Shown: positions 2,323 through 9,624 of the stretch, piece by piece
Layout: each line of letters opens with the position of its first letter
Position numbering within the stretch: the first letter of the stretch is position 1
Assembly: GCF_019711415.1 (NCBI RefSeq)
Contig: NZ_JAIGNJ010000001.1
Coordinates: 241,001-305,000 of the forward strand
Direction: 5' to 3'
DNA from: Qipengyuania vesicularis
GTDB lineage: Bacteria > Pseudomonadota > Alphaproteobacteria > Sphingomonadales > Sphingomonadaceae
Length of the DNA stretch: 64,000 nt
Made by a program: the position numbers and the translations under genes
Notes under the pieces: generated by a model
Seen by the model: only the letters and a program-made list of their open reading frames with translations
Told to the model about the DNA's origin: nothing
The model's database searches: none

Positions 2323-2502
2323 TCAATCGTCCTGCGGCTTGACCACTTCCGCAGCGATTTCTTCGGGCAGGGCGGGTCGCCCCGGTACCGCGTAGCCATC
2401 ACCAAACCACTGCGCGAGGTCGCGGTCCCGGCACCGCGTGGAGCAGAACGGCTTGTGCTCCTCGGTGCGTGGCTTCTTGCAGATAGGGCAGGGCTTATTC
2501 AT
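2323..2502 (-). CDS. yacG: DNA gyrase inhibitor / zinc-binding protein YacG
   Basis: A 59-aa zinc-ribbon protein. Two Cys pairs are visible (CPIC near residues 5-8 and CSTRC further on), which bind one zinc in the YacG family; YacG binds GyrB and inhibits gyrase. The start chosen is ATG 2502 (MNKPCPIC), which overlaps the end of the upstream RNase gene by 8 bp; a longer frame to 2538 adds 12 non-conserved residues inside that gene. The C-terminus keeps the WFGDGYAVPG-type segment typical of the family. Last gene of the infA-maf-RNase-yacG group. Confidence 0.9.
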   Translation of the reverse strand: MNKPCPICKKPRTEEHKPFCSTRCRDRDLAQWFGDGYAVPGRPALPEEIAAEVVKPQDD

Positions 2503-3442
2503 GACCGACCACTTGGGCAGCAGCCGCCTCAATGGCAAGGCCGGGGTCGGTCTCTATCCGCAGGGGGCGTGCCGTCCGGCGCTCGACCTCCGCCATCCAC
2601 TCTGGCTTGAGCTTGGCATTGAGCGCGGGATGAAGCGTCAGCAAGGTCGTGCCGACTCCCTCGACCATCTCGGCGCGGCGCAGCGCCATTCGCGCAGACA
2701 TTCCCACCCGCGAGGTTGCAAAGCGATGCAGCAGTGAGGGACCTTCAAGTCGCGCGACCAGCTGCACGAAACCGAACCCGTTCATGGCCGTGCGTTCATG
2801 CGGCCAACCGTCCAGAGCATCTCCAAGCGCTGCGTCCACCGCCTTGCGGTCCGCCTTTGCCGCGAGCGTGGGGAAATCGATCCCGATCGACCCGCCAAGA
2901 TCCAACAGGCGAAGCGCTGCAGCGATCGGGTCGACTGCGGCCATGGAGAGGGCACGGGAGTCAAGACTGCCGTCTATATCGATCAGCGTCATCGCGGGGG
3001 TGACAGCAAACAGCAACGAGCCTCCATTGAAGGCGACTTCGCCAGAGCTCGCCGCAGACCAAGCATCTTCCCATAGTCCGGGCGGGAAGCGATGAACCCT
3101 TCTTCCCGCATCAAAAACATCATCGACGGGGGCGGATGCCGATATGGGGCGAGCCGCCGCCAGCTTGAAACGTCCCCGTTCTGTCATCGCCGCACGGGAT
3201 ATGACGAGATCAAGCGTGCTTCCCTCGCCTACATCCCGCGGCAACTTGTCGACCAGCAGTTCGCGCCCATCCGGTGTTTCCGCTGTGCCACGCGTGCCAT
3301 TCTTGGTTGTGAGTTTGGCAGAGATCGCTTGACCCGCATGGAATTCACCGGGCCAGCGACAGCGAGCACCAAGGATCTTTTCTCCATCGAGCAGTATCGC
3401 GCGGGTCTCGCCGATACCTTCCTCGATCAACCACTCAGGCAA
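2495..3442 (-). CDS. RNase E/G-family ribonuclease, short form
   Basis: A 315-aa protein resembling the catalytic part of RNase E/G. The N-terminal stretch is S1-like. Two segments match the metal-binding Asp sites of RNase E: LIDIDGS in the middle, and LGGSIGIDFPTL about 45 residues later, equivalent to the GGxIxIDF segment. The protein is much shorter than RNase E or G (about 490 aa or more) and has no CPxCxGxG zinc-link motif, so oligomerisation and activity may differ. It overlaps maf at its 5' end by 8 bp and yacG at its 3' end by 8 bp, which implies translational coupling. This short form beside maf and yacG is common in alphaproteobacteria. Confidence 0.8.
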   Translation of the reverse strand: MPEWLIEEGIGETRAILLDGEKILGARCRWPGEFHAGQAISAKLTTKNGTRGTAETPDGRELLVDKLPRDVGEGSTLDLVISRAAMTERGRFKLAAARPISASAPVDDVFDAGRRVHRFPPGLWEDAWSAASSGEVAFNGGSLLFAVTPAMTLIDIDGSLDSRALSMAAVDPIAAALRLLDLGGSIGIDFPTLAAKADRKAVDAALGDALDGWPHERTAMNGFGFVQLVARLEGPSLLHRFATSRVGMSARMALRRAEMVEGVGTTLLTLHPALNAKLKPEWMAEVERRTARPLRIETDPGLAIEAAAAQVVGHE

Positions 3443-4010
3443 TGTCGAACCCCGCCGCCTTGAGCAGTGCGCGCGTTTCGTGGAGCGGGAGGCCGACCAC
3501 TCCAGAATGGCTTCCCTGGATGCGGCTGATCAGTCCTTCCGCGATGCCCTGGATGGCATAGCCACCCGCTTTGCCCTCCCATTCGCCGCTGGCGATGTAG
3601 GCGTCGATTTCCTGTGTGGAGAGGCGCTTGAACAGGACCGCCGTCTCGTTCAGTCGCTCGCGCATACTTCCGTCGGGAGCACGCAAGGCTATGGCCGACA
3701 GCACGCGGTGACGGCGGCCTGACAGAAGTTCGAGGCACTTGCGCGCAGTTGCCTCGTCCTCGGCCTTGGGCAAGATACGTCGTCCGGCCGCGACAACCGT
3801 GTCACCTGCCAGAACGAAACCGCGATCGCTCGCTGCCGCTTCGGCTTTTTCGCGCGCCATTCGCTTTGCATAGTCGCGCGGTAACTCGCCCTTGGCCGGT
3901 GTCTCGTCGATATCGGCGGGAGCGACGGCGTCCGGCGTCAGCCCCAGACGCGCGATCAGCTCGCGGCGACGCGGACTTGCGGATGCGAGGATGAGAGTGG
4001 GCTTGCCCAC
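3435..4010 (-). CDS. maf: Maf-family nucleoside triphosphate pyrophosphatase
   Basis: A 191-aa house-cleaning pyrophosphatase that hydrolyses modified or canonical NTPs to NMPs. The N-terminal LASASPRRREL motif (residues 7-17) is the substrate-phosphate loop. KAEAAA, LAGDTVV and a GYAIQGIAEGLI segment hold the conserved charged residues of the active site. Length matches the family. The gene starts 7 bp after the infA stop and overlaps the RNase gene by 8 bp, so the four genes are likely co-transcribed. Which nucleotide is preferred (dTTP/UTP versus m7GTP) is not decided here. Confidence 0.93.
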   Translation of the reverse strand: MGKPTLILASASPRRRELIARLGLTPDAVAPADIDETPAKGELPRDYAKRMAREKAEAAASDRGFVLAGDTVVAAGRRILPKAEDEATARKCLELLSGRRHRVLSAIALRAPDGSMRERLNETAVLFKRLSTQEIDAYIASGEWEGKAGGYAIQGIAEGLISRIQGSHSGVVGLPLHETRALLKAAGFDIA

Positions 4011-4016
4011 CGCGTA

Positions 4017-4274
4017 TTACTGCGGGCCGGGACCCTGGCCGGGTCCGCCACGTCCGGGCATGAAGCGGTAGGTGATGCGCGCCTTGGTCAGATCGTAAGG
4101 CGTTAGTTCGCAAAGCACCTCGTCGCCCACCAGCACGCGGATGCGGTTCTTGCGCATCTTGCCGGCCGTGTGACCGAGCACTTCGTGGCCGTTCTCGAGC
4201 TCGACGCGGAACATGGCGTTGGGCAGCAGTTCCACAACACGCCCGCGCATTTCGAGAAGTTCTTCCTTGGCCAT
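4017..4274 (-). CDS. infA: Translation initiation factor IF-1
   Basis: An 85-aa protein starting [11 protein letters not shown] at ATG 4274. It is a single S1/OB-fold domain that occupies the ribosomal A site during initiation. The core ([48 protein letters not shown]) is nearly invariant. The last 13 residues form a Gly/Pro/Gln tail ([12 protein letters not shown]) beyond the usual 72-residue length. The frame stays open upstream to 4430, but those codons are not conserved and run into the leader. First gene of the infA-maf-RNase-yacG group. Confidence 0.97.
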
Positions 4275-4477: not shown

Positions 4478-7201
4478 TTGATCAAGTTCGATTGGAAACC
4501 CACGCTCTTCACGGCCACCGCAGCTTGGGTCTCAACCGTAGGTCCTGTGGGTGCGCAGGAAATGGAGGAGGAAGAGGCAGCCGAGATGACAGCTCCGGCG
4601 GGGGTTACGCCCATACTGGAGGACGATGAGATCGTCGTCTTCGGCACGCGGCTCAAGGGCCAGCTCACGATCGATCAACCGCCGCTTGCCGAATATGACG
4701 AAGCGGATATCGCCGCGATCGGGGGTAGTTCGATCGCGGACATCATCGCCGCCATCGAACCATCGACCGGCAGTAGCGTGCGCGGTGGGCGCGGCGGCGG
4801 ACGGCCCGTCTTTCTCATCAATGGCATTCGCGTCTCCAGCTGGCGCGAGTTTCGCAGCTACCCGCCCGAAAGCGTTGCCAAGGTCGAGGTCTTCCCAGAG
4901 GAAGTGGCGCAGCGTTTCGGATACTCGCCCGACCAGCGCGTGGTGAACATCGTCCTCAAGCCCAATTTCCAGAGCCTGACGGCGGAGGTCGAGTATGAAG
5001 GCCCGGCCGAAGGGGGCTATACGCGGACCGAACAGGAAGCGACCTGGCTTAGGAATGGCGAGCAGGGCAGGCTCAATTTCGACCTCGAGTTCGAGGATCG
5101 CAGCCTGCTGACCGAGGCCGAGCGCGGCCTGACGATTGGCAGTGATGACGGTGAAGCCGAATTCAGAAGCCTCCTGCCGGACACTTTCGGCTTTCAGGCG
5201 GAGGCGAATTACGCCCGGGCGATCATAGAGACCGGCACTTCGCTGGGGCTCAACGGGACATATGCCCGTAACGAGAGCCGCAGCCTGGCAGGATTGGCCA
5301 CGGACGGTGCGTCTGTGCTCGAAAGGCGAGCTGAGAATGACAGCTATTCCGCCGGCCTTTCGGTCAACCAGCCGATCGGCGACTGGAGCGCGACTTTCAC
5401 CAGCGACCTCAACCACACGGATTCGCTGAGCGAGATCGATCGCAACGACGCCAGCGGCTTCGATATTGCACGCAGCCGGACCTATACGGCGGTCAACAAG
5501 GCGACGTTGAACGGTTTCCCGATCGCCCTGCCTGCCGGCGAGGTGAGCTACACGCTCGACCTCGGCTTCGACTGGAAGCGAATAAACAGCGAGGATTCGC
5601 GCGCGACAGAGGACTTCTCCCTCACGCGCAGGCGGCTCAACGCAGGCGTGACGATCGCCGCGCCGATCTCGCGCCGCGGCGGGCCGCTTGGTGCGGTCGG
5701 CGATGTCACTTTGGTGGCATCGGGCGGGGTCGAGGACCTTTCCGATTTCGGCGCGCTGGCAAACTGGTCGCTGGGTGCCAACTGGTCGCCCACCAACAAG
5801 CTGAATGTCAGCGCGACCCGGATTTGGCGCGAGGTTGCTCCATCACTGACCAATCTTGGCAGCCCGCGTATCGACGAGTTCAACGCGACCGTGTTTGACT
5901 ACCTGACCGGCCAGACTGTGCTTGCAACGCTGGTGACGGGCGGCAATCCCAACTTGCGGGCAGAAACGCAGGCCGACTGGAAATTCAGCGCTAACTGGGA
6001 AGTGCCGTTCTGGGAAAATGCGAGGCTCCAGGCGGATTATGGGATCAACCGCTCGCGAGACGTGACCGCTACCCCTTCGTTTAGCGCAGCTTTCGAAGAG
6101 GCTTTTACCAACCGCGTGACTCGCGATGCGGAGGGCGACCTCCTCGCCATCGATCGTCGGCCGCTGACGCTCTACCAAACCCGCAGCCGCATCCTCGCCT
6201 TCGGGCTCAATGCGCGGGGACAGATCGGCAAAGCGCCACCGCGGGCGGAAGGTGGTAGTGGGCGAGGCAGGGGAGGTGAAGGGAGCCGAGGTCCCGGCGG
6301 CTTCGATCCTGCACGAATGGAGCAGGCGCGTAAGGTCATCTGCGAAACCCGGGAGGGGGAGACGCCCGATCTCGCAAACCTGCCGGACATGGTTCGAGCG
6401 CGACTGATCGACGAGAACGGCAACCCTGATCCTGAAAAGATCGCAGCTGCCCGTGAGCGGTTCTGCGGAGAAGAAGGCACGCAGCGTAGTGAGAGATTTG
6501 CTGCCATGCGCGCAGCGGTTTGTGCCGATCCCCCGAAGCTTGAAGACCTTCCCGAAGCAATGCTGGCGCGCCTCAAGAGCGAGGACGGCGAGATCGATCC
6601 CGAGCGGCTCAAGGCTCTTCGTGAACGGATGTGCTCTGCAAGCGCGGAAAGCAATGCAGGTGGGCAGCCTCGTTCGAGGGGCGGAATGATGCGCATGCTG
6701 GGTGGGGGGAACCCCAATGATCGGCGACCGCGCTATTTCCTGTCGCTCAATCACACGATTACACTCGAGAACGAGGTGCTCCTGGCGCAAGACGGCCCGT
6801 TGTTCGACCAGCTTGATGGCTTCGTCCTCGGCGGTGGTACGATTCCCGATCAAAGCTCGACCCTCGAGGCCGGCATCTTCTGGCAGGGCTACGGTCTGAG
6901 GCTTTCAGGGCGCTACACCGGGGAAGCCGTGCTGCGAGGTGGGGACCAGCCCGGGGCGAGCGATCTCTTCTTCGGCGATCTGGCGACATTCGACGTCCGC
7001 TTGTTCGCCAATCTAGGGGAGATATTCGACAAGCAAGATGGCTGGCTGGACGGACTGCGAGTGTCGGTGCTGATGGACAATGTCTTCGATGCGCGCCGAA
7101 GGGTCGTCGACCAGAATGGCGATATTCCGGAGGCTTACGATCCGCTGCGGCTCGACCCGACGGGACGCTACCTCGGCATCGATATCAGGAAATCGTTCTA
7201 G
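4478..7201 (+). CDS. TonB-dependent outer-membrane receptor with duplicated Cys insert
   Basis: A 907-aa outer-membrane transporter. A signal peptide (residues 1-26, cut after VGAQ) is followed by an acidic linker, a TonB-box-like EIVVFGTR (about 50-57), a plug domain to about 165 with a Gly/Arg-rich loop near 100-110, and a beta-barrel ending in Phe as expected for BamA recognition. Inside the barrel, residues about 590-745 form an insert bounded by Gly/Arg-rich linkers. The insert holds two copies of a roughly 45-residue unit with Cys at 622/663 and 682/719. The start is TTG 4478, since an in-frame stop lies at 4469. The ligand is unknown and no siderophore or sugar genes adjoin. It is divergent to infA. 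Confidence 0.87.
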
Positions 7202-7207
7202 ACCTGC

Positions 7208-7996
7208 TTAATGAAGTGCGCGGCGGGGGAAGAACATCCTTGCCAGCCCGCGCGCCTCGAAACGCTTCCAGTCGCCTTCTTCCTGCGCGAGCCGGTCGGC
7301 CACAGCATAGACGACAGCCGGATTGACCCCGAGGCCGCAATGGCTGGCGACGACTTCGATATTCTCGCAGTCTTCGCGGTCGCCGCACTGGACCGAGCCG
7401 CGCCAATGCACGACGCCATCGGTGCGCGTCAGGATCGAGGTGGTCGGCACGGGAGGTGCTTCCGCGAGAGAACGGAAACTGCCGCCCTGCATCGGCTCGG
7501 GCTCCTTTCCGTTGAGGTATTCGAACAGGCGGGTCGCATTGGTGTGGCGACGGTCGTCGGTAATGGGCGAGCCCAGGCTGATCACGAGGCGCACCTTGTC
7601 GGGCGCCATCTTGGCCAATTCGCGTGCAAAAACGCCGCCCAGGCTCCAGCCGACTATGCTGATCGGACGCCCGGTACGATCGTGGAGTTCCTCCACGCAG
7701 GCCAGCATGGCATCGATCCGCGCATTGTCGACACGGACATTCCGGCCAAGTTTCCACCCTACCGCATCATAGCCAAGGTCGGAAAGCAGGCGACGCAGCG
7801 GACGGGTCGAATAATCGCTCGCCATGAAGCCCGGGAGCACAAGTACGCCGTGACCGTCGCCCCTTGGCAATCCCGACATGAGCGGGCGCAGCGCGTAGAA
7901 GCTGGCGAGTTCGCCCATCGCGCGGCCGGGTTCGGCCAGCATGAGGAGACGGCTCGGCGGGCGAGCTGCGGACGGATCGGTTGCGACTGTGGTCAC
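7208..7996 (-). CDS. Alpha/beta hydrolase (lipase/esterase-like)
   Basis: A 262-aa alpha/beta hydrolase without a signal peptide. The nucleophile elbow is GWSLGG with Ser near residue 118. The oxyanion region is VLPGF at 53-57, and a late SHCGLG segment likely carries the catalytic His. It overlaps the preceding acyltransferase gene by 4 bp (ATGA), so the two are probably translated together, which fits a role in neutral-lipid turnover or mobilisation. Four Cys residues lie in the second half. The substrate cannot be read from sequence. Confidence 0.8.
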   Translation of the reverse strand: MTTVATDPSAARPPSRLLMLAEPGRAMGELASFYALRPLMSGLPRGDGHGVLVLPGFMASDYSTRPLRRLLSDLGYDAVGWKLGRNVRVDNARIDAMLACVEELHDRTGRPISIVGWSLGGVFARELAKMAPDKVRLVISLGSPITDDRRHTNATRLFEYLNGKEPEPMQGGSFRSLAEAPPVPTTSILTRTDGVVHWRGSVQCGDREDCENIEVVASHCGLGVNPAVVYAVADRLAQEEGDWKRFEARGLARMFFPRRALH

Positions 7997-9624
7997 GATT
8001 TGCTTGTTCCTTTCCCTTTCGGGGCAGCCGGTTTCTTCGAACGGCTGGCGACCCCTTTCGTGCCCGCCGCTCCCGTCTTCTTCTTCGGGGCGGCTTTTGC
8101 GGGCGTTTTCTTTTTGGGAGCAGCCCGCTTCTTAGCGGCGGGCTTGGTCGCACCCTTCTTAGGCGCTTGTGGTTTATTTTTGGTGGAGGCAGCGCCCTTA
8201 TCCGCAGATTTCGCGGCTTCGCGCAACTCGTCGAAACTTGCCTGGATGCATTCTCTATAGAATTCGGGATCCGGCATCATCTCGCGATCGGCCGTAAATG
8301 CGATCGTCGCCTCGTCGGTATAGCTTTGCACCACATGGCCGAGGCCAAGCCCGTCGGTAAGACAAAGTAGCCCGAGCATGCTCTCCATCCGCGCTCCGGC
8401 CGAATAGATGGGCACAGGCGGTCCGGGGACGTTGGTCACTACGGTCGAGAAGATCGGGCCGACTCCACGATTGGCAAGGCTGAGGCGGCTGTAGAGCTGC
8501 GCGCCGAGAGCCATGAACAGGGCGGGGCTGGCCTTGCTCATCTCGGTCATGTTGCGAGCGCCGAGCGCGTCGGTCATCGCCTTGGAATTTTTGGTTCGGT
8601 CGTGGACCCATTCGAGCCGTTCGAGCGGATCGGCTATATGCGTGCCGAGCGGCGCGATCATCGCGGCGACCTGGTTGCCCATCGAATTCTTCTCGTCCTT
8701 CGAACGGACGGAAATCGGTGCCATCGCGGTGAGGGTCTTCTTGGGCAATTCGCCCTTATCTTCGAGATAGCGCCGCATGGCCCCGCCAACGATGGTCAGG
8801 AAGACGTCGTTGACCTTGGCCCCCTCGCTGGCCGTACGGATCGCCTTGATATCCGCCAGCGGAACGCTGACGCCCTCCACTACGCGGTGCGGTGATATCT
8901 TGCGATTGAACCGTGTCTTGGGGGCGATAATCTCGGTCGAGACGTCGAAATCCTTCGAAGCAAGGCCCTTCAACGCCTTGGCGAGGCCTGGCGCGGCCTT
9001 GGCGGCAACTTCAAGCTGCTTGAGCGGATTGGTGATCGCGTTGAAATAGCTCTTGCCGAGAAGCTCGACGGGATTGGGCAGCTTTTCGGGCTTCCAGGTG
9101 TCGGGTGCCTTCGGTGCAGGTTCGTCCGGCCGCAACGTATGCGTAGCTTCCATCAGGTCGATCCCGCTCATGCCGTCGATTGCGGCGTGATGGACCTTTG
9201 TAATGTAGGCGTAACAACCCCTCGGAAGGCCTTCGACGTTGTCGAGCCCTTCAACCACGGTGAACTCCCAGGGCGGGCGTTCGAGGTCGAGCGGGCGGGC
9301 AAAGATTCTCGCCGCCTGTATGCACAACTGTCGCCAATCACCGGGCTGGGGCAGGGCAACGTGCCGAACATGATATTCGAGATCGAAGTCGGGATCCTCG
9401 ATCCAATAGGGGTAATCGAGGTCGAAAGGCACGCGCACGAGGCGCTGGCGCATGGTCGTTGAAAGCTGCAGGCGGCTTTCGATGAAGCCGAGGATGTCCT
9501 TGAACCTCACGAAGCCACCGGGCGCGGTCTCCGGATTGTAGATCAGGATCGAGCCGATATGCATCGGTGAATTGCGCGTTTCGAGCGCAACGAAGCTGGC
9601 ATCCATGCCCTGGAGCTGCTGCAT
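7993..9624 (-). CDS. Wax ester synthase / diacylglycerol acyltransferase (WS/DGAT) with basic tail
   Basis: A 543-aa acyl-CoA-dependent O-acyltransferase making wax esters or triacylglycerol. The condensing-enzyme motif HHAAIDG lies at residues 145-151, and the N-terminal MQQLQGMDASFVALE block is typical of the family. The C-terminal WS/DGAT domain contains NVPGP. After about residue 472 comes a tail of some 70 residues made almost only of Lys, Ala, Pro, Gly and Thr (PKKGA, AAKKRAAPKKK repeats), which resembles histone H1 tails and is not part of the enzyme fold. Downstream it overlaps a hydrolase by 4 bp. The tail could bind nucleic acid, lipid droplet surface or acidic membrane; that is inference. 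Confidence 0.92.
   Translation of the reverse strand: MQQLQGMDASFVALETRNSPMHIGSILIYNPETAPGGFVRFKDILGFIESRLQLSTTMRQRLVRVPFDLDYPYWIEDPDFDLEYHVRHVALPQPGDWRQLCIQAARIFARPLDLERPPWEFTVVEGLDNVEGLPRGCYAYITKVHHAAIDGMSGIDLMEATHTLRPDEPAPKAPDTWKPEKLPNPVELLGKSYFNAITNPLKQLEVAAKAAPGLAKALKGLASKDFDVSTEIIAPKTRFNRKISPHRVVEGVSVPLADIKAIRTASEGAKVNDVFLTIVGGAMRRYLEDKGELPKKTLTAMAPISVRSKDEKNSMGNQVAAMIAPLGTHIADPLERLEWVHDRTKNSKAMTDALGARNMTEMSKASPALFMALGAQLYSRLSLANRGVGPIFSTVVTNVPGPPVPIYSAGARMESMLGLLCLTDGLGLGHVVQSYTDEATIAFTADREMMPDPEFYRECIQASFDELREAAKSADKGAASTKNKPQAPKKGATKPAAKKRAAPKKKTPAKAAPKKKTGAAGTKGVASRSKKPAAPKGKGTSKS

Follow-up and report, generated by a model that had tools for sequence, protein, structure and literature searches.

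TonB-dependent transporters are a known kind of receptor, and in BtuB, FhuA, PirA and FepA turn T8 of the barrel is short. FecA and FpvA carry, in addition, an extra N-terminal signaling domain in the periplasm. The FecA domain is given as residues 1-79 (PMC11658791), and periplasmic turns are described as normally short in this class (PMC8341980). Here we analyze a window of 64,000 nucleotides from the marine bacterium Qipengyuania vesicularis (positions 241,001 to 305,000 of contig NZ_JAIGNJ010000001.1), which encodes an outer-membrane nutrient receptor whose T8 appears to be a 169-residue connection holding a folded, Cys-paired tandem module, in contrast to the four transporters named first. 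The receptor resembles FecA and FpvA in having a folded domain on the periplasmic side, but the domain is N-terminal in those proteins, whereas here it lies inside the barrel sequence, in a turn. The receptor and the parts of its insert are as follows:

4478..7201, + strand, TonB-dependent receptor of 907 aa with a TTG start; fold match to solved TonB-dependent transporters and profile match to BtuB
6164..6223, + strand, barrel strand 16, residues 563-582, last before the insert (AlphaFold2 model)
6224..6301, + strand, N-side Gly/Arg-rich linker, residues 583-608; predicted local distance difference test score (pLDDT) under 50 at residues 591-607 (model 565-581)
6302..6472, + strand, module 1, residues 609-665, three helices; Cys622 (6341-6343) and Cys663 (6464-6466)
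6485..6640, + strand, module 2, residues 670-721, three helices; Cys682 (6521-6523) and Cys719 (6632-6634)
6641..6730, + strand, C-side Gly/Arg-rich linker, residues 722-751; pLDDT under 50 at residues 723-743 (model 697-717)
6731..6781, + strand, barrel strand 17, residues 752-768, first after the insert (AlphaFold2 model)

A sequence-only reading had described this open reading frame (4478-7201, + strand) as a 907-aa receptor, as we also find, and had singled out a duplicated Cys-containing module within it. The duplication is real: the insert contains two copies of one unit of about 50 residues. A local alignment of copy 1 (609-663) with copy 2 (671-719) spans 51 columns and scores 93 under BLOSUM62. 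In 20,000 shuffles of copy 2 the score averaged 24.3, peaked at 60 and never reached 93 (0/20,000); the worry that the two halves might align no better than shuffled sequence can be set aside. No DNA repeat between the copies is listed at a minimum length of 18, and the duplication is visible at the protein level. The cysteines lie exactly at positions 622, 663, 682 and 719, and the protein has no others. The motifs LPxxxxARL, ExGxxDPE and RERxC are present in both copies, but the first motif, originally given as [R/A]xxVC, is better written RxxxC (RKVIC and RAAVC). Gly/Arg-rich linkers flank the pair of modules on both sides, as had been proposed (residues about 583-608 and 722-751).

Both structure models give three helices per module, and in the AlphaFold2 model the modules have ten-residue mean pLDDT values of 82 to 93 (model 591-690). 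The insert is predicted to be helical and not barrel strand, which supports the earlier view that a Cys-bracketed helical duplicate is foreign to the standard receptor plan. Conservation was scored over 120 modules from 71 receptors, namely all receptors with two or four cysteines plus the two modules of the window, with receptors having 0 or 1 Cys excluded. The conserved columns are R (119), C (119), P (119), R (118), G (119), R (110), R (114) and C (120). The final Cys is present in 120/120 modules, and a Cys is aligned at the first site in 119/120; in module 2 of locus L121 the first Cys is displaced by one residue (GCG), the sole such case. Between the paired cysteines lie 36 or 40 residues in 97/119 two-Cys stretches and 58 to 62 in 6, one extra single-Cys stretch overlapping an already counted module. 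A long module form, in which helices A and B are farther apart in the sequence, occurs in relatives from Pontixanthobacter, Altererythrobacter and Aurantiacibacter (L111, L113, L114, L116, L118, L120, L132, L140, L142 and L158, among others).

The receptor is a TonB-dependent transporter as judged by its predicted fold and by its profile match to BtuB. Its overall fold is that of solved TonB-dependent transporters, and the AlphaFold2 model has the 22 barrel strands expected of them. An hhalign match to BtuB (probability 95.4, E 2e-8) covers the plug region; Pfam Plug is matched in 42/55 family sequences, the protein of the window itself being without a Plug match. No NCBIfam family scored above its cut-off for the receptor, a sequence search of the PDB with the receptor alone gave no match, and a search of its own genome (9 candidates scored) gave no match besides itself at E ≤ 1e-5. 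Its N-terminal features are:

4478..4555, + strand, signal peptide, residues 1-26, cleavage after VGA; judged by eye from the sequence
4628..4645, + strand, TonB-box-like stretch EIVVFG, residues 51-56; from the sequence, aligned with the N-terminal stretch of BtuB
4643..4957, + strand, plug domain, residues about 56-160; from the alignment to BtuB

The site of the insert was read from the AlphaFold2 model of the mature protein (built from 55 sequences; mean pLDDT 85.0, predicted template modeling score 0.75). Strands were counted on its DSSP (secondary-structure assignment) line, with the hairpin at model 439-461 assigned to loop L7 and 3-residue strands taken as loop. The insert (model 557-725) falls between strands 16 and 17 of 22, so that 16 strands precede it and 6 follow. 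Because the final strand of outer-membrane barrels terminates in the periplasm, an insert with six strands after it should start and finish on the periplasmic side. The lengths of the connections agree with this count: across the 55 family sequences T1 to T7, T9 and T10 measure 2-19 residues and T8 measures 42-257, although the model also has short connections among the loops assigned to the outside (L6 = 3, L1 = 6). In such barrels long loops are often found outside, and short turns join strands at the periplasmic face (PMC8341980). Twelve more distant paralogues have no modules in the aligned stretch, where the gap is short or moderate and tightest in L175. We conclude that, in the model, the insert very probably replaces periplasmic turn T8.

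This bears on the earlier suggestion of an extracellular cap that binds a ligand or a metal. Receptors of this kind usually have long loops outside (PMC8341980), and a miscount of one strand would place the insert there; the even-to-odd strand position and the pattern of turn and loop lengths speak against it, and we consider such a cap extremely improbable. In particular, a surface ligand-binding cap is unlikely because the strand count puts the insert in T8. Nor does metal binding find support. The module resembles EF-hand proteins such as calmodulin in its helix-loop-helix arrangement with a DG-containing loop, and calmodulin rows top the Foldseek list for the insert, without significance (E 0.39, probability 0.20). 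The EF-hand loop, the sole type of metal site searched for, was rejected as a candidate: 0/120 modules match the 12-residue Ca-binding-loop pattern (PS00018-like), and no EF-hand family is among the Pfam matches of 32 modules.

Relatives provide evidence on the pairing of the cysteines. Searching 147 genomes, that of the window included, with the whole protein gave a match at E ≤ 1e-5 in 84. Loci were collected as 70 from genomes with a match and 80 named loci, the top 80 of 533. The named organisms belong mainly to Qipengyuania, Erythrobacter, Pontixanthobacter, Altererythrobacter, Tsuneonella, Aurantiacibacter and Croceibacterium (mainly Erythrobacteraceae), and further relatives come from metagenome bins that bear higher-rank labels only. 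The mature proteins of the 80 loci have four cysteines in 48 cases, two in 22, none in 9 and one in 1. Four of them end before or within the insert and were left out (L145 with one Cys; L119, L126 and L146 with none), while L110, which starts inside the gene yet covers the insert, was kept. This leaves 76 receptors read past the insert, 48 with four cysteines, 22 with two and 6 with none, and in all of them the mature part has no cysteines outside the modules, where they come in pairs only. The pattern lends indirect support to the proposal of one disulfide per copy, and we hold it highly probable that each module forms one. A thiol redox switch, in which the Cys pairs would sense periplasmic oxidation, could also explain why these pairs are almost invariant; however, both a spacing of mostly 36 or 40 residues and their location at the ends of helices fit structural disulfides, and relatives lack entire modules and not single cysteines, which makes a switch very unlikely.

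The modules are also under selection. Ratios of nonsynonymous to synonymous substitution rates (dN/dS) were computed over the 55 pairs formed by the window and 10 close relatives, less those with saturated dS, giving rough medians of 0.082 for the plug (55 usable pairs), 0.138 for the barrel (55), 0.079 for module 1 (44), 0.100 for module 2 (41) and 0.387 for the linkers (40). By this measure the modules are constrained about as strongly as the plug, and the linkers far less; purifying selection of this strength contradicts the idea of a degenerate repeat. Copies group by position across species, the nearest neighbor in another species being a copy 1 for 45/49 copies 1 and a copy 2 for 47/49 copies 2, which indicates an old duplication in most lineages. 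On a quick tree of 77 rows (the 76 receptors and that of the window; insert columns omitted; support from the Shimodaira-Hasegawa-like approximate likelihood ratio test only), two modules are found at 49 tips, one at 22 and none at 6. At least 13 changes in copy number are needed, against an average of 25.0 with shuffled labels, and gains are indistinguishable from losses. Relatives without modules have a T8 stretch that is mostly Gly- or Pro-rich (L066-L070, L147, L149, L155, L156, L157 and L161) and may represent either an earlier or a reduced state. Such linker-only relatives, together with low-complexity, fast-evolving linkers, would fit a neutral expansion without function, but modules that evolve about as slowly as the plug and Cys pairs kept through at least 13 copy-number changes render this highly improbable.

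The module seems confined to this receptor. At E ≤ 0.01 a module profile matched 69/147 genomes in the sample of relatives and, at E ≤ 0.001, 90/298 genomes of the family, 10/385 of the class and 8/398 of the phylum; the samples overlap, include the genome of the window, and were scored for the best candidates per genome only. Beyond the family group of the window, matches are weak (E 1.8e-4 or worse) and those inspected have no Cys pair; within it, G013 (E 0.00995) and G322 (a 56-aa frame) are marginal. We found no convincing module outside this receptor among the genome samples searched. In Pfam, neither the insert nor 32 single modules came near the cut-off of any family: the best match, DUF3135, gave 13.3 bits for the insert, below the gathering cut-off of 22.7, and occurred in 2/32 single modules (best E 0.019). 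A PDB sequence search with the module returned nothing convincing, and a Foldseek search of PDB folds with the insert returned no significant match. The module looks like a small disulfide-paired helical domain outside Pfam. The literature we searched does not describe a barrel whose periplasmic turn holds a folded tandem module with paired cysteines, which is no proof of absence since subscription papers were mostly beyond reach. The Pfam scan bears on whether the arm is a tether or spacer that fixes the receptor by binding peptidoglycan or another part of the envelope. Long flexible linkers on the periplasmic side would suit this role, as would frequent changes in copy number, tolerable for a spacer; no Pfam peptidoglycan-binding family is among the matches of the 32 scanned modules, however, and the linkers are poorly conserved, leaving this unlikely.

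The receptor has the following neighbors:

2495-4274, - strand, infA, maf and a ribonuclease-like gene, beside the receptor
7208-9624, - strand, alpha/beta-hydrolase-like and wax-ester-synthase-like genes, convergent to the receptor; named by eye

The first three names are our assumption, assigned from the sequence and not taken from a family search. In the flanks of 80 related loci, infA is matched in 78, maf in 77 and the ribonuclease-like gene in 77, and because these genes are shared most of the loci represent one chromosomal place; the hydrolase-like gene is matched in 37/80 and the synthase-like gene in 35/80. One could imagine that the modules, folded, conserved and placed at the periplasmic exit, act as acceptors at the moment when the ligand exits the barrel, binding either this imported ligand or a periplasmic binding protein. 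No transport gene is among the conserved neighbors tested (infA, maf and the ribonuclease-like gene), and we regard such a hand-off as rather unlikely.

The placement of the arm is well supported, and from it we infer a function. Two three-helix modules, carried by two flexible Gly/Arg-rich linkers, would form a folded arm, tethered to the periplasmic face of the transporter, in place of turn T8 between strands 16 and 17. Each module would be closed by one disulfide, most likely between cysteines at the ends of its first and third helices and introduced by the periplasmic Dsb system. The arm would dock, protein to protein, at the periplasmic mouth of the barrel, adjoining the site where TonB pulls on the plug, and could hold or position TonB, the plug or a partner in the periplasm while transport proceeds. 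We favor docking because the T8 arm lies on the face where the receptor meets TonB, and hold it at a little under an even chance. A figure of the FhuA-TonB complex marks T8 and T9 for reference (PMC11658791).

Several points weigh against this interpretation. The T8 label in that figure is suggestive at most; the side of the insert would flip with one strand miscounted, and residue alignments to solved receptors stop by the start of strand 14, before the insert. Values of dS are near 1.2, which makes dN/dS rough even with saturated pairs removed. Finally, six receptors read past the insert lack any module, so the modules are dispensable in some receptors of the family.

The interplay of plug, TonB and barrel is still under debate. 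Natural versions with zero, one or two modules, mostly at one chromosomal place, lend themselves to comparisons on what the periplasmic side of the barrel does. Going further, it is possible, if doubtful, that T8 has become an evolvable docking arm in this family, in which disulfide-closed units are gained or lost and may touch TonB, the plug or a partner in each cycle, tuning uptake from the inner side.
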